64,000 bases of DNA from Ignavibacteriales bacterium. Its GTDB lineage: Bacteria > Bacteroidota > Ignavibacteria > Ignavibacteriales > Melioribacteraceae. Every line of letters starts with the position of its first letter. Positions within the stretch are counted from its first letter, which is position 1. The DNA lies in the NCBI GenBank assembly GCA_026390775.1, contig JAPLFF010000006.1, positions 1 through 64,000 of the forward strand, in the 5' to 3' direction. Below the pieces are notes generated by a model. It was not told the DNA's origin. It did not search any database and was given only the letters and a program-made list of their open reading frames with translations. Both the position numbers and the translations under genes were made by a program. This document shows, piece after piece, positions 1-16,594 of the stretch.

Positions 1-742
1 ACAAACCTTTGGAGAATTGTAGCAACAAATGCTAGCGCCTTAGGTTACAATGCATTTCTTATTACAGTTGATCTAAAAGAAAAAACTACCGGAATTCAAG
101 TCGAGAGTAAATTAAGATCGGTCATGATCTCAGGATCAAAAAATTTTTCATTCAATGATTTCAATTTAGCAGATTTAACCTACCGCAACACAAAACTTCA
201 GGAAGCATTTGGTAAGAATATGAATGCGCCTGATGGAAATTACACCATCTGCGTATATGTTAAAAATGAAAAAGGTGAGGAAGTAGCCAGAGATTGCATT
301 GACCAAACCATTACCACAATAATTCCGGAAGAGGTAAGCCCACATCTTACCGTGAGATTAATTCCGCCTCCGCCAAATCAGCTGAAGAAAACAGATCTCT
401 GGAGATTAGTTGCAACTAATGCAAGCGCGGTAGCCTACAAGGCATTTCGTATTAGTATTGATATTAAGGACTATAATCTTGGAATTCAGGCCGAGAGTAA
501 ATTAAGATCGGTCGTGATCTCAGGATCAAAAAGTTTTTCATTCAGTGATTTCAATTTAGCAGGCATAACCTACCGCAACACAAAACTTCAGGAAGCATTC
601 GAAAAAAATATGAATGCGCCTGATGGTAATTACACTATCTGTGTGTCTGTTAAAAATGAAAAGGGTGAGGAAATAGCCAGAGATTGTATTGATCAAACCA
701 TAGCCACTGTAATTACGGAAGATGTAAGTCCACAGCTTATTT
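1..742 (+). repeat. 390-bp tandem direct repeat inside the giant surface gene
   Basis: Bases 1-352 and 391-742 align with a period of exactly 390 bp (130 codons). Long stretches are identical, for example the bases encoding ESKLRSV and YRNTKLQEAF. The first copy is cut by the window edge, so more copies may lie upstream. High DNA-level identity points to a recent duplication or gene conversion. Confidence 0.9.
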
Positions 743-3700
743 CTCCCGCCGACGGTTCAAAAATAAATTCGAATCAGCCGATTTTGTTTACCTGGATGCT
801 TCCATCAATTAAACACGGCGATGATTATAATTATAGAATTAAAGTAGTTGAGATACTCAATAATCAATCTCCTTCTGAAGCAGTTAAACAAAACCCGGCA
901 TGGTTTGAGAGAGAGGATATTAAAACAACGACATTAATATATCCCGTTGCTGCAAGGAAGTTCGAAAAGGGGAAGAAGTATGCATGGCAAATAGCAGCCT
1001 ATACAGATAATAATGAGATTGGAAAAAGTGAGACGTGGAGTTTTATTTATGGTAGTGAAGAACTGCCTGAAAAGATTACAGAGATAAAACAATGTGATGT
1101 TTTTAAAGTAGAATTTAAAAAAACTACCCAGAGTGACACACTTTCTTATAAGCTTTTAATAACTAATAATTATACCGGAAAGTTCGCTGGTAATAAGCCG
1201 GGAAGCTTTCGAATTGCAGTCAAGGGTGATTCTATTGTTTCAATTGTTGGAGGTGTCTCAGGTGGTTGGCAGCGTACTCCGTCGAAATTTCCTCCTGGTT
1301 CAAGCGGTGTGAAGTGGACTAACAATTCCGGTGATATTCCAAATGGTATAACTGATTTAGGGAATATTTCATTACAGAGTAATACTACTAATCCAATACA
1401 GGTAGATTATGAATGGTTAGATAAGGAGGAAGTTTTAATTTGTAAGAACTCTAGTGTTCTTAATAAATCAAATAGATCGCATGTCACTAATCCAACTGAT
1501 AGTACATTATCAGGAGGAACGGGAACAGTAGCAGTAGGTGATACAATTAAGGCCGGACATAATGGAGAATTTAAAGTTATCGTTACCGACGTAACTACCG
1601 AAGCGGATAGCTCAGTAACAGGTAAAGGAAGAGTCCACATTAATTGGTTGGGGACAAATGTTGCTGTCGAGTTTAAAAAAATTCGAGTTGATACAACTAG
1701 ACGATTAACATCCGGTGGAATTGTAACTACAGAAAGCGGAAGTTCCAGTACATCTTATTTAGCATATCCGCTAGCATGGGCTGAGAGTGTTCTAACAGGA
1801 CCGGGTGCAGCTAATGTTGTAGATCATATGGTAAACTGGTCGAATGGTAAAATTGATAACCTCGTTACCTGGGTTAATAGTCTTAACTATGGTCAGCCGC
1901 AAATAAACTACCAAAGTAATATTCCGCCTCCTGTACTACCAGACTATTCACTTAAAATGCCTTTTGGTTTGCAATTCAATAATGGCAATCAGAAATTGGT
2001 AATTACTGAAATGGTCTTCAAAAAAGATTCATCTAAAATAAATTTTTTAGCGCAGGAAAAATTTACAAAAGCGGGCACACCTTATACTTTAGGATTTGCG
2101 GGAAAATATTTTCCTATACATCCTTCCAGTATAAATTTTTCCAGCGGTCGTGTGGAACTTGCAGAAGACATAAAAATTCCCAACACCATAGCTACTCCTA
2201 AAATGATTTTCAACTTTAAAAAGGGGACACCTAATTCCGGATGTTATGTTGAATGGGATAGCACTGGCGTTAAAGATATAAGTCTTGGACTCGAAGTTAA
2301 GTTTACCAGAGATTGGTTACTTCCAATTCCTACTTCAACAGATTCGGTTAAAGCAACCATTTCAGGAAATGGAACTAGCATGCATGATATTCTGCTTGCC
2401 GGCACTTTAGATAGTTGTGAAATTGTCGGCACAAATGGAATAAAGATTCAGGCAAGCCCGATGTCACTCGATCTTTCAGATAGTAGAAATCCCCTGGACA
2501 TGCATTTCCCTAGCAACTACCCAAACGATTCAACAGTAACATGGAAAGGATTCTATGTTAAATCTTTTGTCCTCACTTTACCTGATACATGGAAAACGGG
2601 AACTAATCTTACTGCACCAGTCGTAACAGCATCTAATTTCGTAATTGATGATATGGGGCTAACCACGAAAATAAAAGCTGTAAACGTTTTCAATTTGCAA
2701 TCAGGAAGGATAGCTGATTTAAGTGCCAGTCTGGATACGGTTGAGATTTCTATTATCAGTAGCTCTTTAGTCAGCGGAAAAGCCAAGGGCATACTTGTAT
2801 TGCCAATAAGTGAAGTTACAACTCAAAATAGTTTAAAATACACAGCCACATTCAACCAGGTATCGAGTGGAAATAATTTTCAAATAGCTATACTTCCTGT
2901 GGGTCCGATTGATGCCGATATTTTTAAAGGCAAACTAACATTACTACCAACCTCAAATATTTCGGCGAATCTTTCTCCAAACTTAAACACTCTTTCAATT
3001 AATTTGAACGGTACTTTTAAGTGGGATAGTCCTAACTTTCCAATTAAAGGTATAAAGATGGAACTGGGTTTTGAGAATGTAGGATTAAACTATGCTTATA
3101 ATTCAACTACAAATACACTCAATTTTAATCCCGGTACATGGAGCTTTGCGAGTCCCCCAAAATGGTTGGCAAATTTTCCTGTCTCAATTAAAAAAATCTA
3201 TTATAAATCGTTAACAAAAGCGAGTTTGCCCAGCCCGAAGATGGAGCTTTTAAGAGGGGCGCTGATGATTGATATAGTTGCCAACCTCACCGAAGACATA
3301 GGTGGCGCAACCACATTGGGTGCATCATTTGCTATAGAATTGAATAAAACCGACAAAAAATTTACGCCGAAGTTCATAGAAGTTTTTCTTGACAGTATTT
3401 CAGTTCATGCAGATATGCCGGCTGTGAAGATTGATGGTAATATAAGTATTCGAAATGAAGATCCTGTTTATGGTAATGGCTTTCTTGGAGAATTAAATGT
3501 TGCATTTACATCTGTTGGTCTTAAAGCAAGGGCATTAGTCGAGTTTGGAAATACTAATTACTTATATGGCAGTTTATACAGGTATTGGCGAGTAGAAGCG
3601 GATGTACTTTTACCACCTCCGGGCGTTCCTTTTTTAACGGGTCTTGCCTTCAGAGGTTTTGGCGGCGGGGCCTACTATAATATGTTAGCAACACCGGGTA

Positions 3701-5481
3701 CCTCTACTAAAACACCATCAGGCAAGAAATTTACTTTTACTCCTTTGAAATCGACAATGGGCTTGAGAGTCGCAGCTACAATTGCAACTACACCGAAAGA
3801 AGAAACTTTCAATGCAGACGTAGGACTATTAGCACAGTTCTCAAAGAGCCAGGGTTTAACATATATTGCCTTTACAGGTGACTTTTGGGTTGGTGCCGGT
3901 TTTGCAAAGCGACCGACGGCTAACATTAGTGGAAATGTTAATGTAAGTTATAATTTTCCCGATAAGCATTTTAATCTTTCCGCAAGTGTTAATGTAAACG
4001 CTACGCCTATTACTACTCCAAGTCCAGCAAATCTTGTGTTGGACATAAGAGGAAAAACAAATAAATGGTTTTTCAAATTTGGAGAGCCGGTGCCTAACGG
4101 ATTAAATCAAGTAGATGTTTTTGGTGTTCACTTATATGAGTATTTAATGTTTGGGAATGATATCGTAGCCCCTTCCGGATTTACACAAACGTTTAAGGAT
4201 GGTTATCATGGTGTATTTGGAACTGACCCGGGTATTCCTGTAATACCTACTAATACACTCACGGCAACCGGCAAAGGATTTGCATTAGGTATAGGATTTA
4301 AATTTAACAAAGACGTTAATTTTAATTTAGTTGGTAGTTATTCTGCAGAATTGAAATTAAATGCAGGTGCCGAGTTAAATCTGGCATTCGCAGAATATAA
4401 TGGAAACAACTGTGAGTATCCTTCCGAACGAATTGGAATTAATGGATGGCAAGCCTCAGGAAGTATAGGCTTTTATGCTTCTGTATTAGCATCTGTAAAA
4501 CATAATAGTACGACCTGGAACATAGCCGATATAAAAGCCGGGGGTTGGCTGCAAGGAAAATTTCCAAATCCAGTTTATGTAACTGGCTTAGTGGAAGGGT
4601 CTGTTAAAATTGGACATTTTACTACATGGACACATTCTACTGGTGATTGGTACTACAATTCTTACACTGATTGGGGGTGGTCAGCATGCGTACATCCTCA
4701 AGATCATTATCTGGTAAATACATCATTTAATAAGAGTTTTGAATACGGTACTAATTGTTCCGGAATAACCAGTGCAGGAGATGGTGCAACAGTTGTACAA
4801 GGAGATGCTGCTCAAGACCAACAACAATTATTAATACAATATGTACATCCCGCACAACAATATGACTTTCCTATCACATCTCCTTTATCGGTAGAGTATG
4901 GATTGATTCCCGACAATATTTTTGATGTATCTGAGCAACAATCGGATGGTTCTATAAAAAATAGAACTTTTAAAATGGTAGTAAGCACAAACTTGAAAAT
5001 TCATAATGCTGATGGTTCACTATCGAATGTTGTATTAAAGAAAAATGAAAATAATCTAGGTGAGTATTTATATACCGTTTCAACTCCAAACACAATAAAT
5101 ACAACAACAGCTAAAACAATTAGTCAGACTCAAGCTAAAAGTAACACAGTTAATACTAACATACTTCTTAACAATACCGTTATAAAAAATACTGCCAGTA
5201 GTGGACAAATAATTACTACTTATCCGTTACCACCGGCCAGTAATACTTATAATAATTTACCCCCTGAAGCCCCAGAGGTTAAAAATAATTTAACAGTAGA
5301 TAAGGATTATACTTTTACTGTAACTGCTACATTAAAAGAATTTGTTAGCAATAGCTGGATTGATGCAAAGAACAAGAATAATAATGTTGTTACTCAAACT
5401 GTTACTAAAAAATTCAGAACAGGACCAATGGTTACAGTTGCAAGTACGCTTAATTCAAAAAACACTTTAATAAATAAATAA
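1..5481 (+). CDS. Giant beta-rich surface/secreted protein, 5' end outside window (partial)
   Basis: The reading frame is open from base 1, so the gene begins upstream; the ATG at 124 lies inside a repeat and is not the start. At least 1826 residues are visible. Residues 1-117 and 131-247 are two near-identical copies of a module (DLWRLVATNAS ... YTICVSVKNEKGEE ... DCIDQTI). A second module follows at about 245-350 (ISPADGS ... FTWMLP ... KKYAWQIAAY), like an Ig or FnIII fold. The remaining ~1450 residues are Ser/Thr/Asn-rich, beta-strand-like and hard to assign. No transmembrane helix and no type IX sorting domain is seen at the C-terminus. It lies 18 bp before a FnIII gene and shares its N-terminal modules with the barrel protein at 7750-10455, so an envelope or cell-surface role is inferred. 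The general look recalls Bacteroidota TANFOR-type proteins, but that is unverified. Confidence 0.8.
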   Translation, partial: TNLWRIVATNASALGYNAFLITVDLKEKTTGIQVESKLRSVMISGSKNFSFNDFNLADLTYRNTKLQEAFGKNMNAPDGNYTICVYVKNEKGEEVARDCIDQTITTIIPEEVSPHLTVRLIPPPPNQLKKTDLWRLVATNASAVAYKAFRISIDIKDYNLGIQAESKLRSVVISGSKSFSFSDFNLAGITYRNTKLQEAFEKNMNAPDGNYTICVSVKNEKGEEIARDCIDQTIATVITEDVSPQLISPADGSKINSNQPILFTWMLPSIKHGDDYNYRIKVVEILNNQSPSEAVKQNPAWFEREDIKTTTLIYPVAARKFEKGKKYAWQIAAYTDNNEIGKSETWSFIYGSEELPEKITEIKQCDVFKVEFKKTTQSDTLSYKLLITNNYTGKFAGNKPGSFRIAVKGDSIVSIVGGVSGGWQRTPSKFPPGSSGVKWTNNSGDIPNGITDLGNISLQSNTTNPIQVDYEWLDKEEVLICKNSSVLNKSNRSHVTNPTDSTLSGGTGTVAVGDTIKAGHNGEFKVIVTDVTTEADSSVTGKGRVHINWLGTNVAVEFKKIRVDTTRRLTSGGIVTTESGSSSTSYLAYPLAWAESVLTGPGAANVVDHMVNWSNGKIDNLVTWVNSLNYGQPQINYQSNIPPPVLPDYSLKMPFGLQFNNGNQKLVITEMVFKKDSSKINFLAQEKFTKAGTPYTLGFAGKYFPIHPSSINFSSGRVELAEDIKIPNTIATPKMIFNFKKGTPNSGCYVEWDSTGVKDISLGLEVKFTRDWLLPIPTSTDSVKATISGNGTSMHDILLAGTLDSCEIVGTNGIKIQASPMSLDLSDSRNPLDMHFPSNYPNDSTVTWKGFYVKSFVLTLPDTWKTGTNLTAPVVTASNFVIDDMGLTTKIKAVNVFNLQSGRIADLSASLDTVEISIISSSLVSGKAKGILVLPISEVTTQNSLKYTATFNQVSSGNNFQIAILPVGPIDADIFKGKLTLLPTSNISANLSPNLNTLSINLNGTFKWDSPNFPIKGIKMELGFENVGLNYAYNSTTNTLNFNPGTWSFASPPKWLANFPVSIKKIYYKSLTKASLPSPKMELLRGALMIDIVANLTEDIGGATTLGASFAIELNKTDKKFTPKFIEVFLDSISVHADMPAVKIDGNISIRNEDPVYGNGFLGELNVAFTSVGLKARALVEFGNTNYLYGSLYRYWRVEADVLLPPPGVPFLTGLAFRGFGGGAYYNMLATPGTSTKTPSGKKFTFTPLKSTMGLRVAATIATTPKEETFNADVGLLAQFSKSQGLTYIAFTGDFWVGAGFAKRPTANISGNVNVSYNFPDKHFNLSASVNVNATPITTPSPANLVLDIRGKTNKWFFKFGEPVPNGLNQVDVFGVHLYEYLMFGNDIVAPSGFTQTFKDGYHGVFGTDPGIPVIPTNTLTATGKGFALGIGFKFNKDVNFNLVGSYSAELKLNAGAELNLAFAEYNGNNCEYPSERIGINGWQASGSIGFYASVLASVKHNSTTWNIADIKAGGWLQGKFPNPVYVTGLVEGSVKIGHFTTWTHSTGDWYYNSYTDWGWSACVHPQDHYLVNTSFNKSFEYGTNCSGITSAGDGATVVQGDAAQDQQQLLIQYVHPAQQYDFPITSPLSVEYGLIPDNIFDVSEQQSDGSIKNRTFKMVVSTNLKIHNADGSLSNVVLKKNENNLGEYLYTVSTPNTINTTTAKTISQTQAKSNTVNTNILLNNTVIKNTASSGQIITTYPLPPASNTYNNLPPEAPEVKNNLTVDKDYTFTVTATLKEFVSNSWIDAKNKNNNVVTQTVTKKFRTGPMVTVASTLNSKNTLINK

Positions 5482-5499
5482 TAAAATAAAAGATCAACT

Positions 5500-7659
5500 A
5501 TGAAAAACTTATTAATATCAAATATGCTAAAGCACAAAATGTGCTTAATATATATCGTTGCCATGTTTTTATTTGCAAACATCGGCTTTGCTCAAAAGGC
5601 AGATACCACAACAATTCCAACAAGCTATGTTAATGTTGTTGGCAGATATACAGAAGGCAAAGGTGTTGAACTACGATTTTTCTCTGATAAAAAATCGGTT
5701 CTAGAAATTGGTTTTAAAAATGGATTTAGTATTGAAAGAACACTTTTCGATTCAAAAGTTAAAAGAAAACAAACCGATACTTTGGTTTATGTAGAAATTG
5801 CAAAAGTATTTCCATATAAAGATAATCAATGGGAAACCGCTATTAGTAACGAAAAAAACTTAGACTCAAAAAATGAATTAGAGGTTGCCAGAGATTTTCT
5901 AAAAAATATTTCTAAACGAGAAGGTGGAGTTTTCAGTTTTGACAAAGGCATTGCAGAATTAAAAGATCAGAAAAGTAAGGAAGATTATGAGTACATGGTT
6001 TTTGCACTATCCGCATTACAAAATGCAAATGTTGCCAATGCATTGGGTTTAGGTTATACAGATAGTACGGCCATAAAAGGTAAATCGTATATCTATAGAG
6101 TTAGACCTTTAAGTGCATCTAATATGTACAAAATTATTCCTGTGGATTATTTTATTGTTGCTGAGAAACTTAAGAAAGGTTACGATAATCATGTATATGT
6201 AAAGCAGGGAGATACAGAATTATTTTTTGCTTGGTTAGATATGCCGGAACTTTCAGGATATTTTGTAGAGCGGGCTAATCCTGGCGAGACCACATTTACT
6301 CAGTTAAATAAAGCTCCAATACATAGTCTTGAAGGAAGCAATTATGAAGGTGAATCCAGAAGCGGATATAATGACAAAAATTTGATCAACTATAAGATAT
6401 ATACTTATAGATTTTTTGGCTACACTTTGTTTGGAGAAAAAGTACAATTTGCAGAAGTTAAAGCTATGCCGAAAGATTTAACTCCTCCCGAACAACCATT
6501 TCTACAACAGCCACAACATGTAAAAGCCAAAGAGGTTTTGGTTACATGGAAAATGAATCCGATTCCGGCGCCAGACTTGAAAGGATTTTTTGTAGCTCGA
6601 TCAAATAAAAATGAAGGAGAATTTAAAGTACTACACAGCGGAATGCTTTCAAAAGATACCAGGACATTTACAGATACTACCTTCATCACCGGTCAGCCAA
6701 ATTATTATGTAGTTCAGGCAGTTGATACTGCAAAAAATGTTAGCTCTTCGTATCCGGTTTCTGTTACATTAATAGATTCTATACCCCCGGTTAAACCGGT
6801 TTTTATTTCCGGCAAAATAGATTCGCTTGGAGTAGTGACAATCACAGTTCAGAAAAATAAAGAAAAGGATTTAATGGGATATAGACTTTATAAATCAAAT
6901 AGTCCTGAACATGAATTCTCTGTTATTCATGAAAGTTTTATGAATAATGACTCTTTAGTACAAGTGGTGCAAACAGTATTTAAAGATACCGTTACATTGA
7001 ATTCATTAACACCTTTCATTTATTACAAAATTAAAGCACTGGATTTCAATTACAATCAATCAGAGTTTTCGAATGTGATGAAAGTAGCACGGCCTGATAC
7101 AATTCCCCCCGTTTCCCCTGTATTTAATGATGTGATTGTAGGAGAAAAAAAGATTGAATTGCATTTTGTGCCAAGCAGCAGCGAAGATGTTAAAGAACAT
7201 ATCATATATAGAAAAACAGATCTAAAAGGTAAGTGGGAAATTCTTAAGACAACGGAGTCAACCGCTAACAAATACATAGACACCACGGTAACAACTGGTA
7301 TTACGTATTATTATTCAATTAGGGCCAAAGATTTAAGTGGGCTGTATTCTAAATATGCTTCGGTAGTATATGGTAAACCTTATGATACAGGCATAAGGCC
7401 TTCAATTGAAAACTTCATGGCAAAAGTTGAAAAGAAAAATATCATTCTCAGCTGGGAATACCCTGCTTTAAAAACAGAACACACTTTTGTGATTTATAAG
7501 AAGGATGATAAGGGACAATTAAAACAATACGACACGACAAAAGAAAAATCATATACCGATAAAAATACTAATAAGGAAAATTACTATGCAGTTAAAGTTA
7601 TTACGGGAGACGGCGGTCAATCAAAATTTAGCAACGTGCTCGGTAAAATTATTGAATAG
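5500..7659 (+). CDS. Secreted fibronectin type III repeat protein
   Basis: 719 residues. A signal peptide (hydrophobic core IYIVAMFLFANIGFA, cleavage before Q) predicts export. After an N-terminal domain of about 200 residues of unknown type, four to five FnIII-like units run from about 230 to the end. They are marked by repeats of the pattern PPVxPV, DLxGYxxYRS and YYYxxxAxDxxGxxS. There is no sorting domain and no membrane anchor. An ATG at 5524 would also leave a usable signal peptide, and neither start has a clear Shine-Dalgarno sequence. The gene follows the giant beta-rich gene by 18 bp and precedes the barrel gene by 90 bp, so the three are probably co-transcribed. The likely role is a structural or binding partner on the cell surface; function is not known. 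Confidence 0.8.
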   Translation: MKNLLISNMLKHKMCLIYIVAMFLFANIGFAQKADTTTIPTSYVNVVGRYTEGKGVELRFFSDKKSVLEIGFKNGFSIERTLFDSKVKRKQTDTLVYVEIAKVFPYKDNQWETAISNEKNLDSKNELEVARDFLKNISKREGGVFSFDKGIAELKDQKSKEDYEYMVFALSALQNANVANALGLGYTDSTAIKGKSYIYRVRPLSASNMYKIIPVDYFIVAEKLKKGYDNHVYVKQGDTELFFAWLDMPELSGYFVERANPGETTFTQLNKAPIHSLEGSNYEGESRSGYNDKNLINYKIYTYRFFGYTLFGEKVQFAEVKAMPKDLTPPEQPFLQQPQHVKAKEVLVTWKMNPIPAPDLKGFFVARSNKNEGEFKVLHSGMLSKDTRTFTDTTFITGQPNYYVVQAVDTAKNVSSSYPVSVTLIDSIPPVKPVFISGKIDSLGVVTITVQKNKEKDLMGYRLYKSNSPEHEFSVIHESFMNNDSLVQVVQTVFKDTVTLNSLTPFIYYKIKALDFNYNQSEFSNVMKVARPDTIPPVSPVFNDVIVGEKKIELHFVPSSSEDVKEHIIYRKTDLKGKWEILKTTESTANKYIDTTVTTGITYYYSIRAKDLSGLYSKYASVVYGKPYDTGIRPSIENFMAKVEKKNIILSWEYPALKTEHTFVIYKKDDKGQLKQYDTTKEKSYTDKNTNKENYYAVKVITGDGGQSKFSNVLGKIIE

Positions 7660-7749
7660 TAAAATCATACAATCAGTTCATCTAATTAAATAATTCAAAG
7701 TGGTATTAGAATACTATTCATGACATCACTACTATTTGAAGGGAAAAAA

Positions 7750-10455
7750 ATGAAAGCAATTAAAATAATATTACTGTTCTTCATAGTAACAATAAGCTCT
7801 TACGCTCAAGTTACCGTTCATCTTCAACAGCCGTCCCCATATCAATTCAAGGTTGAGCAATTCTGGAAAATTGTTTTAATCAACAACAGTGAAAAAACTG
7901 TAAATGTTTATTTAAAAGGAACCGCAACAGAATCTTTGCAAGGAAAAATTATCGAAGCAACTTCATCTGTGATTAGTTTGCAACCCGGCGTAAAGAATGT
8001 TAATGGTCGGGATCTCGGCCCATTCACTGTAAGTGAATCGAACACTCGATATAAAAATATTATAATGAATACCGGTAGCCTTCCTTCAGGAAGTTATGAT
8101 ATTTGTGTTGCCGTGTTCCAAGCAGTAGATGGAATACAAATTGCATCCGACTGCATTCAAACTACAATCGAAAATTTAAACCGGATGGAATTGATAAGTC
8201 CATTAGATCAAGAAGTTATCGGTAATATCTCTGCGGAAGAATCTGAAAATCAAAAATTAAAAAATATGAGTGGGCCTCCGGTAATTATCTTTTCCTGGTT
8301 GCCGCCGGTTCCAGTACCACCGGACGCGAGAATTAGTTACAGATTGAAACTAGTAGAAATTCTTGGGTATCAGTCTGTACATTCGGCAATGGCATCCAAC
8401 CCATTGTATTATCAATCACCAATGATTTCCTCAACTGTGTTGCGATATCCGGTAGCCGCTCGGCAATTGGTTCCGGGAAAAAGATATGCATGGGAGATTG
8501 AATGTTTTATTGATGATTTCAAAACACAGGAAAGTGAAATAAGATCTTTTGAAATTCAAGGTGGTGAAGAAAGGAAAATAAGATATGATGTTAGCAATGC
8601 CGGCACTACTCAATACAGTGAAACTTTTATTAATGAAAAATCTGGACTGCCATCAGGTTTGTCATCTTTCACAAACACAAATAAAAATTATGGAACATCT
8701 ATCTTAAATTTCTTTGGAGCTCCGGCACAGATTGATCTATTTGGTAGTCCAAGTAATTTTAAGTTTTACGGTGATGCAAAGCTTACCCAAATAACAAGCA
8801 GTAAACCCGCACAATTCTCACAGCTTCCTTCAAACTACCAGACTTTAGAAATTAATCCGAGACTTTCAATTTATGATATTCCATTCGGGATGAATATTTA
8901 TCTCTCATCATTAAACAATTCGAATAGGCAAAGTTTGAACAGCGTTTCATTTATGCTGGATATTGATCTACTGAAATCAAAAATAAAAGATCGTATTTCT
9001 GAAAAAGTTAAGGAGATTGCATCATCTGTCGATTCTACTTTAGGAAAACTTACAGATATAGCGTTAAACGATCCGAATAAACTAGAAGAGAACGCAGAAA
9101 AACTTGGACTAATCTCTCCAGCGGAAAAACTCTTTCTAAATATTAAAACGCTCGGAATCGGAAGAACATATCCTGATTATTCAGAGTTAACGGTAAGCGG
9201 CGTACCGGTTAACGGATTGAATGTGGAGTTCAACCCGGGAATATTATACTTTGCCGTTGCTGCCGGGAATAATTTAGATGGTATCGATAATGTTTCTTTT
9301 AAGAGATCATTTTTAGCCGGTCGAATTGGATTGGGTGAAAAAGAAAATGCACATTTCTTTTTAACTGCATTAAAAATGAAGGATGATCTGAATTCGATAT
9401 TAGTAAGTTCATTAAACCCATTATTAACGCCGCAGGAAAACGTTGTGTTAGGATCTGAAGGTAAACTTAACTTATTTCAAAAATTGATCGAGATAAACGG
9501 TGAAGCAGCGGTATCTGGTTTTACGCGAGATTTAAACGATGCAGATTTTGTTAGTAGTTCAATTCCGGGCTTTGTTAAAAATTTATTAACGCCGAAGTTG
9601 AGCACATCATTTGATTACGCTTGGAAAGGAAAAATAGCTTTTAATAATGAGCCGAGTGCAACATTACTTTCTTTAGGAGTAAGAAGAATTGGTCCTGGAT
9701 TTATGTCGTTAGCAGCACCGAGTTTAAGACAAGATCAATTCCAATTCGATTTTAATTTCGACCAGAAGTTTGCTGATAAAAAAATAACAATGAAAACGTT
9801 CTTCAAAGTTTACAATGATAATCTGATCAATTGGAAGCAATCCACAACAACAACTACATCGTTTGGTATTAATCTCGGTTTTTATTTTCCGAATCTGCCG
9901 TTTGTTCAAATAAATTATTCTCCATATTCACAAAGTAATGATAATGTTATCGCTGCTCAAAAGATGGAAAACACATCCGATTTGTTCTCTTTAATGACCG
10001 GCTATTCTTATCAGTTATCCAGTGTATCTGCTTCAACAATGCTTTCGTTTACTGGCCAATGGCAAAACAATAAGATTGGAATTATATCAAACAAGTTCTC
10101 GAATGAATCTTATATGTTAAACCAGAGTTTCAGTTTTGAATTTCCACTGACATTGAGTTCGACTTTAAGTTTGACTCAATCTAAAATTCTTTCTATATCA
10201 AGTAGTATAACGGAATTTGATTTGAACGGCAATTATCAATTAAGTGAAATGATTTCCGCAAATCTTGGCGGAACTATCTCCAACGAGGAGAATCAGACAA
10301 AGAAAACTATGATTTATATGGGCTCAAATATAATTCTTTATCAATGGCTAAGATTCGAACTTCAAGGGAATATATCAAACTATAAGGATCTTTCAGGCGG
10401 AGGAAATAACTATAACGATGCTATGCTACAAGCTACGGTGTCTATGAATTGGTGA
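7750..10455 (+). CDS. Outer-membrane beta-barrel protein sharing modules with the giant protein
   Basis: 901 residues from the ATG at 7750, chosen over 7720 because GAAGGG sits 6 bases upstream and a clean signal peptide (MKAIKIILLFFIV ... YAQ) follows at once. Residues ~20-150 (FWKIVLINNS ... YDICVAVF ... DCIQTTI) and ~155-280 (ISPLDQE ... FSWLPP ... YPVAARQLVPGKRYAWEI) match, block by block, the two N-terminal modules of the giant protein at the left end of the window. The C-terminal ~350 residues alternate polar and hydrophobic residues in strand-length runs and end in a terminal Trp (VSMNW), as in outer-membrane barrels. It is the last gene of the three-gene cluster. I infer an outer-membrane anchor or pore for the neighbouring surface proteins; no family name is claimed. 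Confidence 0.75.
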   Translation: MKAIKIILLFFIVTISSYAQVTVHLQQPSPYQFKVEQFWKIVLINNSEKTVNVYLKGTATESLQGKIIEATSSVISLQPGVKNVNGRDLGPFTVSESNTRYKNIIMNTGSLPSGSYDICVAVFQAVDGIQIASDCIQTTIENLNRMELISPLDQEVIGNISAEESENQKLKNMSGPPVIIFSWLPPVPVPPDARISYRLKLVEILGYQSVHSAMASNPLYYQSPMISSTVLRYPVAARQLVPGKRYAWEIECFIDDFKTQESEIRSFEIQGGEERKIRYDVSNAGTTQYSETFINEKSGLPSGLSSFTNTNKNYGTSILNFFGAPAQIDLFGSPSNFKFYGDAKLTQITSSKPAQFSQLPSNYQTLEINPRLSIYDIPFGMNIYLSSLNNSNRQSLNSVSFMLDIDLLKSKIKDRISEKVKEIASSVDSTLGKLTDIALNDPNKLEENAEKLGLISPAEKLFLNIKTLGIGRTYPDYSELTVSGVPVNGLNVEFNPGILYFAVAAGNNLDGIDNVSFKRSFLAGRIGLGEKENAHFFLTALKMKDDLNSILVSSLNPLLTPQENVVLGSEGKLNLFQKLIEINGEAAVSGFTRDLNDADFVSSSIPGFVKNLLTPKLSTSFDYAWKGKIAFNNEPSATLLSLGVRRIGPGFMSLAAPSLRQDQFQFDFNFDQKFADKKITMKTFFKVYNDNLINWKQSTTTTTSFGINLGFYFPNLPFVQINYSPYSQSNDNVIAAQKMENTSDLFSLMTGYSYQLSSVSASTMLSFTGQWQNNKIGIISNKFSNESYMLNQSFSFEFPLTLSSTLSLTQSKILSISSSITEFDLNGNYQLSEMISANLGGTISNEENQTKKTMIYMGSNIILYQWLRFELQGNISNYKDLSGGGNNYNDAMLQATVSMNW

Positions 10456-10544
10456 TACAAGCAATGAAAAGTGGGAGCAATTATTAATTAATAGGAAGTT
10501 TTTGTGTTATAGGTTATTCTGTTTTTTGCTAATGGTTTGATCAT

Positions 10545-10564
10545 GTTGAAAAATAATTTTCAAC
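10545..10564. promoter_or_regulatory. Perfect inverted repeat upstream of the Ig-repeat gene
   Basis: GTTGAAAA and TTTTCAAC flank a 4-base ATAA loop, 31 bases before the start codon at 10596. No T-tract follows, so it is not a typical terminator. It could be an operator or a 5' leader hairpin; a role is not shown by the sequence. Confidence 0.35.
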
Positions 10565-10595
10565 GATAAAGATTTATTTAAAGAGCGAGATTAAT

Positions 10596-13394
10596 ATGAA
10601 AAAACTTTATACAGTGTTTGTAGTTCTTTCCGGCTTGTTCTATGCTACAAACATATTTGCACAAGCTGCTTCTGTTACATGGGCACTTAACAATACAACT
10701 CAATTGACTTCTGCAAGTGTTGGCAATGTAACAGGGTCAGCGGAATCTATAAATTCGGGTTCCGGACAATTTGGAATGAGTGTTTTCGATTACAGCAACG
10801 ACGGTCAAAGGCTTTGGGAAAATACTGCAGGCTGGATAGCAGGTGCTGAAGAAGCTACACGTTATATTCAGTTTGACGCTTTATTTACAATTGGAAATAG
10901 TTTTACTGTAACAAACGTTTCCTTTAATTATGGCGCTGCAGGCATCAATGGTCATATTCAGTCGAATGTTTATTATTCAACTGATGGTTGGCAAACAAGA
11001 ACATTATTGAATTCAGGTCCTTTAGCATACCCGAATCCTGCAATGTTGCAATTTACCCAAAGTGTAAATGTTGCAGTAGTTGGCGGTACCACATTTTCTC
11101 TTAGAATCTATCCTTATGCGATATTAAACAGCATAGCGATGAGTCCTACTTTTGCTGTTCATAATAATATTGTTATTACAGGTGCAACTGCAACAAAAAA
11201 GAATTGCGTCATACAATTAACGAATGTAGTTGGTAAATGGGGTAAGTCTGTTTTGTTGACAGCGAAGCTACAGGAGATCGGTGCAGCAGGTAATACAAAC
11301 TTACCTAACCAAGTACTAAAGTTTTATATGGACAGTGTGTATGTTAAATCAGGCACAACCAACGCAAGCGGAGTAGCGAGTTTGATATATACTATACCAC
11401 AGGATTCAGCCACACATTCAATCTCAGCACCACAAGATTCAGTCGCACATTCAATCTCAGCAACATATGTGGGAGATGCAAATTATAATGCACAAAGCGG
11501 AACGGGTACATTGACGATAGTAAGACATGTTACAGGTGTAGTTGTAACACCAACGATCGCTATTTATGGACAACCGGTTGTGCTTGTTGCAACTTTGGTG
11601 GACAATGACAACGACGGAAAAGGTGTTTCTAACCAAGAACTAAAGTTTTATAAAATCTCTCCGGGAACAAGAGAAGGAAATACAACAAGGGTATATGTAG
11701 GCTCGGGCATAACTAACTCAGATGGAACTACGAACGTAGTGTTAGAACTCCAAGGGTCGGAATTAGAATTCGTGGCGTCATTTGCCGGAGATGCAAATTA
11801 TAGTCCAAAGAGTGGTACAGGAACATTAAAAAAAATGACAGCAATACAAATAACAGATACAGCTGGTAAGTGGGGAAAGACAATATTGTTGACGGCGAGA
11901 CTGCAAAAGACTGGCTTAACAGGTAATACGAACTTACCTAATCAAGAAATAAAGTTTTATATGGATAGTGTGTATGTTAAATCAGGCACAACCAACGCAA
12001 GCGGAGTAGCGAGCGTAATGTACACTATACCACAGGATTCAGTCACACATTCAATCTCAGCACCACAAGATTCAGTTGCACATTCAATCTCAGCAACATA
12101 TGTGGGAGATGCAAATTATAATGCACAAAGCGGTACGGGGAAATTAACGGTAGTAAGACATGTTACCACTCTATCGATAAGAGGTCACGACGGTGGTGCA
12201 GGAAAGATATATACACAAGATTTAGCCCTAACTGATAATGATAATAGCGGGAACGGTATTCCCAACCAGATTTTGAAGTTTTACATTGATAAAGTATATG
12301 TCAAATCAGGTACAACGAATGCAAGCGGAGTTGCGAGCATATCATTCACTCTACCGCAGGATTCAGTTTCACATTCGATCACAGCTTCATATGCCGGAGA
12401 TGTAAATTACAGTCCGCAAAGCAATACAGGAACAATTACATATACACTAAAAAGTTGCATCATACAAATGACAAACGTGGCCAGTAAGTGGGGAAAGTCA
12501 GTTTTGCTAACCGCCAAGCTGCATGAGACTGGCTTAACTGGTAACACAAACTTACCAAACCAGAGATTAAAGTTTTATCAGGATAGCGTATATATTAATT
12601 CTGCAACAACCAACTCAAGCGGAATAGCGAGTTTAATGTACACAATACCACAGGATTCAGCAACACATTCGATCACAGCACCACAGGATTCAGTTGCACA
12701 TTCGATGAGAGTAGAATTTGCCGGAGATGTAAATTACAGCGCACAAAACGGTGTGGGTACATTGACAGTAGTAAGACATACTACAAGTATATCAGTTGCA
12801 AATAAGAGCGGTAGTGTAGGACAGACAATAACGTTAGAGGCAACTTTAACAGACAATGACGAAAACGGAAAAGGTGTTTCTGGCCAGGCACTAAAGTTTT
12901 ATAAAATCTCGTATGGAACAAGGGAAGGAGATACTGCAAAAGTTTATGCAGGATCGGGCATAACGAATTCAAGCGGATTAGCTATCCAATCGAGTAGATG
13001 GGACGATACTGATATTGTACATGTTGAAGAAGTGATATTTGAAGGTGATGCAAATTATAGAACACAAAGCGGTACAGGAAAATTCACTATTACAGTTGTA
13101 GGTGTTGAAAATAATCAAGCGGATATTTCAACAAAATTTGATCTTTCACAAAACTATCCCAATCCATTCAATCCAACTACAACAATAAAATATGATATAC
13201 CTAAAACGGGTTTTGTAACTATTAGTGTTTACGATATTCTTGGGAGAGAAATCAAAATATTAGTTAATGAGGAGAAAAATCCCGGTCATTATGAAATAAT
13301 TTTCAATGCAAGAGAATTATCAAGCGGAATATATTTCTATACTATTAGAACTAGTGATTTTTCTTTAAGCAAGAAAATGATTTTGATGAAATAA
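10596..13394 (+). CDS. Secreted Ig-like repeat protein with type IX secretion sorting domain
   Basis: 932 residues with a signal peptide (MKKLYTVFVVLSGLFYATNIFAQ region). Residues ~25-200 form a unique N-terminal domain. Six Ig-like repeats of about 95-111 residues follow from nt ~11200 to 13100 (bacterial Ig-like folds with LKFYxDSVYVKSGTTNASGVAS and Y.GDANY.AQSGTG signatures). They alternate between a longer A type (three copies) and B/C types. The last ~85 residues are a type A sorting domain: NYPNPFNPTTTIKYDIP, YDILGREI, LSSGIYFY, KKMILMK. Such domains direct passage through the type IX secretion system and attachment at the cell surface. A strong terminator follows directly. Repeats of this kind usually make extended adhesins or filaments; the ligand is unknown. 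Confidence 0.88.
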   Translation: MKKLYTVFVVLSGLFYATNIFAQAASVTWALNNTTQLTSASVGNVTGSAESINSGSGQFGMSVFDYSNDGQRLWENTAGWIAGAEEATRYIQFDALFTIGNSFTVTNVSFNYGAAGINGHIQSNVYYSTDGWQTRTLLNSGPLAYPNPAMLQFTQSVNVAVVGGTTFSLRIYPYAILNSIAMSPTFAVHNNIVITGATATKKNCVIQLTNVVGKWGKSVLLTAKLQEIGAAGNTNLPNQVLKFYMDSVYVKSGTTNASGVASLIYTIPQDSATHSISAPQDSVAHSISATYVGDANYNAQSGTGTLTIVRHVTGVVVTPTIAIYGQPVVLVATLVDNDNDGKGVSNQELKFYKISPGTREGNTTRVYVGSGITNSDGTTNVVLELQGSELEFVASFAGDANYSPKSGTGTLKKMTAIQITDTAGKWGKTILLTARLQKTGLTGNTNLPNQEIKFYMDSVYVKSGTTNASGVASVMYTIPQDSVTHSISAPQDSVAHSISATYVGDANYNAQSGTGKLTVVRHVTTLSIRGHDGGAGKIYTQDLALTDNDNSGNGIPNQILKFYIDKVYVKSGTTNASGVASISFTLPQDSVSHSITASYAGDVNYSPQSNTGTITYTLKSCIIQMTNVASKWGKSVLLTAKLHETGLTGNTNLPNQRLKFYQDSVYINSATTNSSGIASLMYTIPQDSATHSITAPQDSVAHSMRVEFAGDVNYSAQNGVGTLTVVRHTTSISVANKSGSVGQTITLEATLTDNDENGKGVSGQALKFYKISYGTREGDTAKVYAGSGITNSSGLAIQSSRWDDTDIVHVEEVIFEGDANYRTQSGTGKFTITVVGVENNQADISTKFDLSQNYPNPFNPTTTIKYDIPKTGFVTISVYDILGREIKILVNEEKNPGHYEIIFNARELSSGIYFYTIRTSDFSLSKKMILMK
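11397..12713 (+). repeat. 33-bp doubled unit inside three Ig-like repeats
   Basis: In each A-type Ig repeat an 11-codon unit (PQDSxxHSISA) is present twice in a row: 11397-11429/11430-11462, 12030-12062/12063-12095 and 12648-12680/12681-12713. The C-type repeat near 12355 has a single copy, which shows the ancestral length. The flanking DNA of the first two A repeats is almost identical. Confidence 0.9.
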
Positions 13395-13417
13395 AATCTT
13401 GTACTTTTTTTGACATA

Positions 13418-13448
13418 AAGCCAGAGTATAACTGCTCTGGCTTTTTTG
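13418..13448 (+). terminator. Rho-independent terminator after the Ig-repeat gene
   Basis: AAGCCAGAG (13418-13426) pairs perfectly with CTCTGGCTT (13435-13443) across an 8-base loop. The stem runs into a T-tract (13442-13447). It lies 24 bases after the stop codon. Confidence 0.9.
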
Positions 13449-13589
13449 TTTAGTGGATAGTCCTATGGTGTATCAACAACTTTTAACTACTTTTTACTTT
13501 GATAGAATATCCATATTTTTAGTTAGACAAATTCATCTTATTAATCATATCGAAGACACATATCATAGATCAACATAAGGGAAAAAATT

Positions 13590-15842
13590 ATGAGCGTAAC
13601 AAAAGAAGAGGCGCTGAAGTATCATAGTGAGGGAAGAAAAGGTAAGATTGAAGTCGTTCCGACCAAACCATGTTATACTGCTAGAGAATTATCACTTGCC
13701 TACACTCCGGGTGTAGCAGAACCGTGTAGAGAGATTGAAAAAAATGACGACGATGTTTACAAGTATACTGCAAAAGGAAATTTGGTTGCTGTTGTTTCAA
13801 ACGGAACTGCAGTATTAGGATTAGGTGATATTGGTCCGCATGCAGGTAAACCTGTTATGGAAGGTAAAGGTGTTTTGTTTAAACGATTCGCTGATATAGA
13901 TGTATTCGACATTGAATTGAAAACACATGATCCAAAAGAAGTAATCCGTGCAGTTCAATTAATGGAACCTACTTTTGGCGGGATTAATCTTGAAGACATC
14001 AAAGCGCCGGAATGTTTTGAGATTGAAGAAGAACTAATTAAGACTATGAACATACCTGTATTCCATGATGACCAGCACGGAACAGCAATAATTTCTTGCG
14101 CCGCTTTGATTAATGCTGTGGAAATCGCCGGGAAAAAATTAGACAAAATTCATCTTGTTGTTAACGGTGCCGGTGCTGCTGCCATTTCTTGTTGTAAATT
14201 ATATGTTGCCGCGGGTGTTAAGAGAGAAAACATTTCAATGTTTGATACAAAAGGGCACGTCAACAAAAAAAGAACTGATCTAAATAAATACAAAGAATTA
14301 TTTGCCCAGGATAACCAGTATGCAGATTTAGCCGATGGAATGAAAGAAGCAGATGTGTTCGTTGGATTGTCAAAAGGAAATATTGTTTCGAAAGAAATGG
14401 TTAAGAGCATGGCAAAGAATCCGATTGTATTTGCTATGGCTAATCCAGATCCAGAAATCAAGTACGAAGATGCAATTGATGCACGCAAAGACATTATTAT
14501 GGCAACCGGAAGAAGTGATTATCCCAACCAAGTTAATAATGTTCTTGGATTCCCATTTATATTCCGCGGCACACTTGATGTTCGCGCAAGTAAAATTAAT
14601 GAACAAATGAAAATGGCTGCTACAAAAGCTCTTGCTCAACTTGCAAGAGAGAAAGTTCCGGAAGTAGTTCTTAATGCTTATGGCGGAAAAGAATTTTCAT
14701 TTGGTCCGGAATATATAATTCCAAAACCGTTTGATCCGCGCGTACTATGGAATGTTGCACCTGCTGTTGCAAAAGCTGCTATGGATACCGGTGTAGCCAA
14801 AAATCCAATTACTGATTGGGATGCATACAAAGTACAATTGCAGGAGCGTTTAGGATATTCAACTGAAATAGTTAGAGTAATGGTTCACAAGGCTCAACAA
14901 AATCCCAAGAAAGTAGTTTTTCCTGAAGGCGAAGAAGAGAAGATCATACGCGCTGCTAATGCTGCTTATGATGACAACATTGCAAAACCAATTCTGCTTG
15001 GTAATGAACAGATTATTAAAACACGAATTGAAGATTTAGGATATGAACTAAATAAATTTGAAATAATAGATCCTGAGACAACGAAAAAAAATGAACAATA
15101 TTCAGAAGTGTTTTATAAAAAACGTCAACGTAAAGGTATAACTCCGCGAGATGTAAAAGCTTTAATGCACGATCCGAATTACTTTGCAGCAATGATGGTG
15201 GAAATGGGTGATGCAGACGCGATGGTTGGCGGACTAACACAACACTATCCTCAGACAATCAGACCAGCACTTCAATGTATAGGTGTGAAAGAAGGATTAA
15301 AAATTGTATCCGGAATGTATATTGTAATCATTAAACGTAAAGTATATTTCTTTGCCGATTGTACGGTAAATGTTGATCCTACCCCAGAACAGCTGGCAGA
15401 AATTGCTATTAATGCTGCAGATGCTGTCAAAGAGTTTGATATAATTCCTAAAATTGCAATGCTTTCATTCAGTAATTTTGGAAGCGCTCCTTATCCGCAA
15501 ACAATTAAAGTTTCAAATTCCGTGAAAATTGTGAAGCAGAAAAGACCTGATCTTATTATTGATGGTGAGATGCAGGCAGATACTGCGGTTGTTGCTGAAA
15601 AAATGGAAAAAGAATATCCATTTTCATCACTTAAAGGTGGTGCAAACGTTCTGATCTTCCCAACTCTTGAAGCTGGAAATATTGCTTATAAACTATTGCA
15701 GCGTTTGACCGATGCTACAGTGATTGGTCCGATCCTGATGGGAATGAAAAAACCTGTTCATGTTATTCAGCGAGGCGATACTGTTAATGATATTATTAAT
15801 ATGACTGCTATTGCTGTTGTCGGTGCAAAGAGCCACAAATAA
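13590..15842 (+). CDS. maeB: NADP-dependent malic enzyme fused to a phosphotransacetylase-like domain
   Basis: 750 residues, the usual length for MaeB-type enzymes, which decarboxylate malate to pyruvate with NADP reduction in the cytoplasm. Residues 1-~425 are the malic enzyme part: [72 protein letters not shown] and the nucleotide-binding VVNGAGAAA. Residues ~430-750 are the PTA-like domain ([49 protein letters not shown]). In studied MaeB proteins this part is regulatory, sensing acetyl-CoA, rather than a working transacetylase. The start has AAGGG upstream. It is a single-gene unit framed by terminators on both sides. Confidence 0.97.
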
Positions 15843-15872
15843 TTGAATGTTTTATTGATTCGGATAATTGGA

Positions 15873-15905
15873 AAAAGCCTAACTTCATTTAGAAGTTGGG
15901 CTTTT
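15873..15905 (+). terminator. Rho-independent terminator after maeB
   Basis: AAAAGCCTAACTTC (15873-15886) pairs with GAAGTTGGGCTTTT (15892-15905) over a 5-base loop with one T-G wobble. The A-run on the left and T-run on the right mean it could stop transcription from either side. It starts 30 bases after the maeB stop. Confidence 0.85.
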
Positions 15906-15967
15906 CGTTATTTATATTACGAATAGATAATTTTATCTTAGCCACAGATTAATCGGCAAGATTTATA

Positions 15968-16594
15968 GTGTTAAAAAATATTTTATATATCTCCGGAAGC
16001 GTTGTGATATTTTTTGCCGGATTAATTTTTTATGGGATAATTCTCAATCTCCGAGAAGTTACCTTAAAAGAAGCATTGATTGAGAAAGGATTGGCAAAAC
16101 TTGAAAACGTACATCTCGTAATAGATAGAACTGATTATCGAATTTCACTTTACTCAAATAAAATTTTAGTTAAAACATACAAAGCTGTATTTGGTAAAAG
16201 TTCAGGAACAATAAAATCTTCTGCAGAGGATAATATTACACCTATCGGCGATTATAAAATTTGCGCAATTGATACATTAAATAAGTACCATAAATTTTTA
16301 CATTTAGATTATCCGAATGAACGAGATGCAGCCGAAGCTCTAAAACAAGGATATATTTTCGATGATGAGTTTAACACAATAATACTAGCTGCCAAGAAAA
16401 ATGAATGTCCGCCTAAAGAAACAAAACTTAGTTCAGAAATAGGAATACATGGTATTGGAACATATAATATTATATTTAAAAATCTTCCGTTCCCATTTAA
16501 TTGGACTAACGGATCAATAGCGGTTAGCAACGAAAGTATAGATGAGTTATACTCAGTGATAAAAGTTGGAACTCAGGTAAAAATAATTAATTGA
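15968..16594 (+). CDS. L,D-transpeptidase (YkuD)-like membrane-anchored protein lacking the catalytic Cys
   Basis: 208 residues from a GTG start. One N-terminal membrane segment (residues ~5-27, ILYISGSVVIFFAGLIFYGIIL) anchors a periplasmic YkuD-like domain. HLVIDRTDYRISLY opens the fold, TPIGDYKI is the usual substrate-loop strand, IGIHG carries the conserved His, and NESIDELYSVIKVGTQVKI is the usual C-terminal end. In the family the active site reads [ST]xGC[IV]; here it reads TNGSIAV, so the nucleophile position (residue 183, codon TCA at 16514) is Ser. The normal activity is 3-3 cross-linking of peptidoglycan or lipoprotein attachment; this copy may be inactive or binding-only. It is 10 bp upstream of a BamA/TamA-like gene. 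Confidence 0.8.
   Translation: MLKNILYISGSVVIFFAGLIFYGIILNLREVTLKEALIEKGLAKLENVHLVIDRTDYRISLYSNKILVKTYKAVFGKSSGTIKSSAEDNITPIGDYKICAIDTLNKYHKFLHLDYPNERDAAEALKQGYIFDDEFNTIILAAKKNECPPKETKLSSEIGIHGIGTYNIIFKNLPFPFNWTNGSIAVSNESIDELYSVIKVGTQVKIIN

Follow-up and report, generated by a model that had tools for sequence, protein, structure and literature searches.

A conserved surface gene cassette of Bacteroidota joining a distant TANFOR relative, an FnIII-like protein and a large predicted outer-membrane barrel

The first 64,000 nucleotides of contig JAPLFF010000006.1 (C6; positions 1–64,000, forward strand), hereinafter the window, from the 3.0 Mb assembly GCA_026390775.1 of an Ignavibacteriales bacterium (Melioribacteraceae), open with three neighboring plus-strand open reading frames (ORFs; 1–5481, 5500–7659 and 7720–10455). 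They code respectively for a giant secreted protein, a secreted protein with FnIII-like repeats (hereinafter the FnIII protein), and an outer-membrane barrel protein with an N-terminal pair of modules also seen in the giant. Judged by sequence comparison, these genes are a conserved multi-gene surface cassette that is widespread in Bacteroidota, and the giant is a distant relative of the TANFOR proteins. We posit, giving the proposal an even chance, that the three gene products form one outer-membrane export or display complex, which would display a TANFOR-type giant at the cell surface or carry it across.

The conservation of the cassette was assessed in a phylum sample of 395 genomes, searched with three alignments: A1 (barrel), A2 (module pair) and A3 (FnIII protein). 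The counts use strong matches only and leave out pairs inside barrel genes; up to four barrel, seven pair and three FnIII candidates were scored per genome, and the counts are thus lower bounds. For the barrel, matches were accepted at E up to 3.1e-36, a limit chosen once weaker ones had proved to be largely from an ~800-aa subfamily. At least 87 genomes encode the barrel, at least 88 the pair outside the barrel and at least 84 both, i.e., barrel and pair are found together in 84 of the 91 genomes with either, while at least 80 of the 395 have a strong match to the FnIII protein. At least 106 of the 124 barrel matches are accompanied by a same-strand pair no more than 25 kb away, and no barrel match has an opposite-strand pair in that range; at least 78, from 65 genomes, have both the pair and the FnIII protein in this range. 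Fifteen of the 87 barrel genomes supplied rows to the barrel alignment and match partly by construction, but in the 72 that did not, at least 87 of 103 barrel matches are accompanied by the pair and at least 61 of 103 by the pair and the FnIII protein. The commonest gene order is barrel–giant–FnIII (52/78), with the giant–FnIII–barrel order of the window coming second (14/78). As a negative control, SprA was found within 25 kb of a strong barrel match in none of 60 genomes with barrel and pair (15 matches known or presumed to be on one contig with it were selected by eye and then checked).

Closer to the window, 22 of 57 genomes, its own included, contain a match to the barrel protein with E no higher than 0.001, some of them only through the modules or weakly through the barrel, and maps of chosen loci show the giant, FnIII protein and barrel genes adjacent in many. 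The named relatives nearest to the window in the barrel region are Ignavibacteriales bacterium PowLak16_MAG6 (95%) and Stygiobacter electus (81%), followed by two Melioribacter metagenome-assembled genomes (MAGs; 68 and 62%). Outside this lineage the barrel protein is often 550–660 aa long and lacks the pair, yet it often lies beside a module-bearing giant and the FnIII protein. A sequence-only reading of the window had taken the three genes for a single envelope assembly that would be in doubt if relatives lacked the synteny or if the module pair were common in unrelated contexts. The strong linkage of the three genes across the phylum supports an assembly of co-encoded parts, and the pair is not promiscuous, as 84 of the 88 genomes with a pair outside the barrel also encode the barrel. 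Hence, it is scarcely credible that the shared modules are generic Ig- or FnIII-like domains in an incidental neighborhood. The giant does pass the Pfam Y_Y_Y cut-off by a small margin (28.6 against 26.6 bits, the best stretch being in a first module) and the second module is FnIII-like; however, the synteny counts, with barrel and pair co-occurring in same-strand clusters, contradict such a view, as does the constant N-terminal position of the modules.

All ten sequence blocks in which the shared modules had first been recognized are present, in the same order, in the giant (residues 133, 211, 228, 263 and 314) and the barrel protein (residues 38, 116, 134, 181 and 233, counted from 7750). 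The two N-terminal stretches align in BLASTP with 83 of 259 identities (32%; E 1e-32), and their Smith–Waterman score is 270, whereas none of 1000 shuffles exceeded 68, which rules out chance similarity; the alignments thus indicate that the module pairs are homologous. In the giant, a complete TANFOR-like first module with a GxYxxC...C signature (349–702; NMOD profile, residues 117–234) follows a copy that is incomplete at the contig edge (1–312; residues 1–104, 2e-32) and precedes the FnIII-like second module with its FTW...YAW signature (736–1044; MOD2 profile, residues 246–348, 4e-39). In the barrel protein the first module lies at 7813–8169 (NMOD residues 32–150) and the second at 8251–8550 (MOD2 residues 178–277), both counted from the opening of the ORF at 7720. 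The ATG at 7750 that had been proposed as its start is in frame and by eye fits a signal peptide, making 7750–10455 the likelier extent of the gene. The FnIII protein matched neither module profile, and a profile search for solved relatives of the pair returned nothing convincing.

It had further been suggested that the parts of the assembly meet through these modules, the pairs of giant and barrel binding each other or a common partner and so holding the complex together. Both proteins of the window do carry the pair, and the 26 barrel-borne pairs, which form one group (99/95) in a tree of 84 pairs, have been kept through divergence. However, 53 of the 80 distinct barrel ORFs in the fetched loci lack the pair, some of them beside module-bearing giants, and the 27 that have it come from a set enriched for the window's lineage, relatives of which were specifically searched; in the even phylum sample a same-frame pair is present in eight of the 124 strong barrel matches. 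Being absent from most barrels seen, the pair cannot be a general dock, and this part of the sequence-only reading is left unsupported: we consider docking unlikely, and the homotypic form of it at most a refinement within the window's lineage. As the barrel-borne pairs form one tree group, this lineage's barrel probably acquired the pair in a single later fusion, and one change accounts for them in 98% of bootstrap trees. The giant of genome G152 (locus L145) is their nearest neighbor in the tree, and its ORF is followed directly, with overlap, by a same-strand barrel ORF; perhaps an upstream cargo gene was the source of the pair.

The relationship to TANFOR comes from the first module. A comparison with the TANFOR model had been proposed, and its outcome is divided. 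TIGR02542 reaches 13.5 bits against the first module of the window (positions 98–138 of 145), missing its curated cut-off of 67 bits, and finds no match in the window's own genome at E 10. A profile–profile comparison that set the first module against nine TANFOR rows, which we chose from the 15 TIGR02542 matches with E below 0.001, does point to distant homology (98.1% probability over 115 columns), and the GxYxxC motif is common to both. On these profiles the giant is a distant TANFOR relative, not a member by the curated rule. Across the phylum sample 12 of 395 genomes match TIGR02542 at E up to 0.001 and none exceeds the cut-off. All 12 encode the barrel, 10 have a strong match to the FnIII protein, and in nine both are same-strand neighbors of the TANFOR match, no more than 25 kb from it. 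We rejected profile drift as the origin of this link: at 14 TANFOR loci, non-iterated profiles built from relatives of the window only recognize the barrel at 8, the FnIII protein at 10 and the second module at all 14, thereby recovering the barrel at 8 of the 9 loci found by the iterated ones (barrel E-values 9e-16 to 3e-36, flattered by a database of 379 ORFs).

The main text of Jana et al. 2020 (PMC7073777), the sole paper that we found on the TANFOR domain or TIGR02542, describes FnIII and T9SS-sorted neighbors of TANFOR proteins (T9SS, type IX secretion system); the word "barrel" is absent from that main text. We did not find in print a link of the large barrel, or of the CORE domain described below, to TANFOR proteins. 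The system of the window resembles the TANFOR polymorphic toxins in its homologous N-terminal module after a signal-peptide-like start, in giant size and in FnIII and T9SS-sorted neighbors, and in 9 of the 12 TIGR02542 genomes the matching gene is itself a member of this cassette with its barrel. Unlike these toxins, the giant of the window has a module under the TIGR02542 cut-off, no recognized toxin domain and a fused CORE.

Position 1 of the window is the start of its contig and the giant gene (1–5481) is thus cut at its 5′ end. The pair that it had been said to open with is present and in order, but the true start lies outside the window, on contig C8. The start of C8 holds a 281-aa open frame (L006:1–843, minus strand) with a signal-peptide-like beginning and two first-module copies, the second of which is 98% identical to the first copy of the window; perhaps they are one and the same copy. 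The assembly break apparently falls inside tandem first-module repeats (window 1–345 and L006:1–345), and copy number varies among relatives, with three in G008, two in G005 and one in others. An intact 1994-aa ortholog from a genome of the same genus (L045:7360–13344, minus strand) has three first modules, the second and third 81% identical, and then a single second module. Thus, both the C8 fragment and this ortholog place the module N-terminally in a large protein, after a Sec signal recognized by eye.

The same placement holds more widely. The pair is found in 65 distinct non-barrel ORFs, with the first module always preceding the second and beginning by residue 130 in 64 of them, while their lengths range from 289 to 4053 aa, some being cut by contig ends. 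A fixed N-terminal pair combined with variable length fits an address label with variable cargo. When the C-termini of seven giants from TANFOR-type loci were compared with Pfam, that of L097 ended in a colicin/pyocin-type DNase (3.4e-42), that of L161 gave a sub-threshold match to an AHH nuclease, with a sub-threshold Imm11 match next door, and five gave nothing over a Pfam cut-off. The L097 cassette encodes tandem TANFOR giants (5827–8898 and 10925–16105) with near-identical N-terminal modules and different lengths, the second being the DNase-tipped one, a pattern expected for polymorphic toxins. The last ~500 residues of 10 giants, the window's included, have no NCBIfam match at E up to 0.1. 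In at least 2 of 25 named loci, from Stygiobacter electus and one Bacteroidetes MAG, Rhs/YD-type proteins are encoded near the barrel (L103:418–8214 and L125:1–4875). Their RHS_repeat matches are 0.0094 (under the cut-off) and 3.9e-5 (over it), the remainder of the Rhs assignment being our own call from the sequence, and no module-bearing giant was seen within these two loci.

Between the modules and the C-terminus the giant contains a ~1,000-residue domain, CORE (1546–4611; residues 516–1537), which other genomes encode on its own, close to the barrel gene. Of 26 distinct ORFs with CORE, 20 join it to the pair and 6 do not; where it stands apart in L161 and L154, the order is barrel–giant–small gene–CORE–FnIII. 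CORE is matched at 1e-5 or better in 39 of 80 barrel genomes; strong matches number 41, in 37 genomes, and about half of the 80 have none. For 37 of these strong matches a barrel is encoded within 25 kb and on the same strand, the other four being on contigs without a barrel match. The fusion in some lineages and gene adjacency in others suggests a joint function of CORE and the giant. A profile search for solved relatives of CORE gave nothing convincing. Beyond it, the C-terminal ~250 residues (4711–5454; GCT profile, residues 1571–1818) are kept in close relatives. Pfam and NCBIfam scans recognized no toxin domain at the C-terminus of the window's giant, and the gene that follows codes for the FnIII protein, where a toxin would be paired with an immunity gene. 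In the window's lineage, where CORE and the label are joined and no toxin was recognized, the giant probably acts in structure, adhesion or display and not as a killing agent.

The FnIII protein (5500–7659; profile region, residues 164–712) has no Pfam fn3 match at E up to 1, and its NCBIfam match is to a stretch of an exoglucanase model (5.8e-9); we retain the name on account of its repeat pattern and of a relative in L156 that lies just over the fn3 cut-off.

The AlphaFold2 model of the barrel protein (23 sequences; mean pLDDT 77.8, pTM 0.54) predicts a beta-rich N-terminal part, a low-confidence linker (residues 272–333) and a transmembrane barrel (8758–10449) in which 26 strands were counted, with a mostly helical interruption at residues 405–463 (~8962–9138). 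Domains N-terminal to the first strand of a barrel should be periplasmic, and the module pair is accordingly expected on that side. A fold comparison covering residues 333–901 returned MtrB (PDB 6r2q) as the best match (Z 20.4, rmsd 5.0, 445 residues, over 335–901), followed by OprD-type porins and AlgE (Z 18 and below), SprA (Z 16.2, rmsd 10.9) and the FimD usher (Z 15.6). No PDB relative was found by profile search and no Pfam family matches the protein at its cut-off. MtrB forms the barrel of an electron conduit, the Mtr complex, and these matches raise the alternative of a porin or conduit for solutes or electrons with the giant and the FnIII protein as its surface receptor. However, the likeness to MtrB is one of barrel fold and size at 11% identity, the all-Pfam scan gave no match to the MtrB/PioB family, and the three cassette proteins have no CxxCH heme motif, for want of which we rejected an electron conduit. 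As the association with TANFOR would also be left without explanation, we regard a porin or conduit as improbable. According to the model the barrel is a large predicted pore, and its fold says nothing on function. Two-partner secretion and chaperone–usher systems likewise encode a large barrel with a large surface protein, but neither family was found in Pfam at E up to 1, and ushers match by barrel fold alone. A role in phage defense was rejected, there being no PADLOC match at E 0.1.

A weightier alternative, plausible if on balance doubtful, is that the T9SS exports the giant, with the barrel acting merely as a surface anchor or shuttle in the manner of PorP/SprF for type B substrates. SprA, the sole component searched and our gauge of T9SS presence, is encoded in the window's genome (E 2.3e-301), in all 60 tested genomes with barrel and pair, and in 6 of 20 without a barrel match. 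This contrast is confounded by kinship, as 13 of the 20 barrel-free genomes, all without SprA, come from one family. PorP/SprF partners bind, or are needed by, their linked type B substrates (PMC9143113 and PMC12618676), and the main text of Jana et al. (PMC7073777) hypothesizes T9SS export while leaving the route of TANFOR toxins out of the cell open. Moreover, L070 encodes a protein (7923–12209) in which the first module, without the second, is combined with Ig-like repeats and a type A sorting domain of the T9SS. Against this, no T9SS sorting domain was found in the 10 giant C-termini mentioned above (the last 499 residues in the window's giant), in three further whole giants, or in the FnIII and barrel proteins, and 65 giants lack a type A-like sorting motif by a crude pattern, some of these ORFs being cut. 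The barrel, which is over no Pfam family cut-off, has no match to the PorP/SprF family among all Pfam matches up to E 1. The SprB–SprF and PG1035–PorP pairs of the same phylum are alike in combining a surface protein with a dedicated outer-membrane barrel; they differ in that the giants tested here have no sorting domain, the barrel has no family match and the conserved label is N-terminal. Dependence of giant export on the T9SS is thus possible.

Under the export/display complex that we prefer, Sec would carry all parts into the periplasm, the N-terminal module pair would be the address label by which a giant reaches the barrel complex cognate to it, the giant would be released or held by the wide barrel, and CORE and the FnIII protein may form a stalk or adaptor. 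Several observations weigh against this proposal. The universal presence of SprA in the tested genomes with barrel and pair means that the T9SS may do the exporting. Among the 124 barrel matches, 16 have neither partner in range and two have the FnIII protein alone. Three genomes (G251, G287 and G393) have no strong barrel or FnIII match near their TANFOR match, some of these contigs being short, and the L095 barrel is recognized only by the iterated profile. The model of CORE failed (pLDDT 33; 7 sequences), and that the giant crosses or touches the barrel is something we infer from sequences and a predicted structure. A bolder version strikes us as rather unlikely, namely a dedicated, T9SS-independent secretion and display system with the 26-strand barrel as its exit, the pair as its signal, CORE and the FnIII protein as constant parts, and as cargo toxins in some lineages, structural giants in others and possibly Rhs-type proteins at two loci.

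The surroundings of the cassette vary. In the window it is followed by a gene for an Ig-like repeat protein with a T9SS type A sorting domain by family scans (10596–13394, plus strand), which is probably not part of it. Upstream of the giant's start on C8 are three tandem look-alike genes for proteins of 140–162 aa, one with unread bases (L006:3239–4728), and a propeller/Y_Y_Y sensor histidine kinase with a LytTR regulator (L006:4973–8754); similar sensor genes lie near the cassette in relatives (L049, L050, L051, L053, L062 and L122). An extra gene is found between the FnIII protein and the barrel in L060 (5317–7332), L065 (4635–6662) and L067 (4417–6510), coding for a TPR protein in L060 and L067, with that of L065 similar. 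L050 (7409–15831) shows an apparent tandem duplication, with an FnIII gene, a shortened barrel, a partial FnIII gene and a full barrel. The related ~800-aa barrel occurs in another recurring locus (L071–L073), with a CHASE2-cyclase gene identified in L071 and a module-like neighbor beside the barrel in L071 and L072; this locus is a second, distinct use of the barrel family.

These results broaden the TANFOR group beyond toxins, with barrel and pair in 84 of the 395 sampled genomes as against 12 that match TIGR02542. The partners that accompany module-pair proteins in roughly one in five of the genomes sampled, namely the barrel, the FnIII protein and CORE, offer concrete targets for deletion with which the question of TANFOR export may be addressed.

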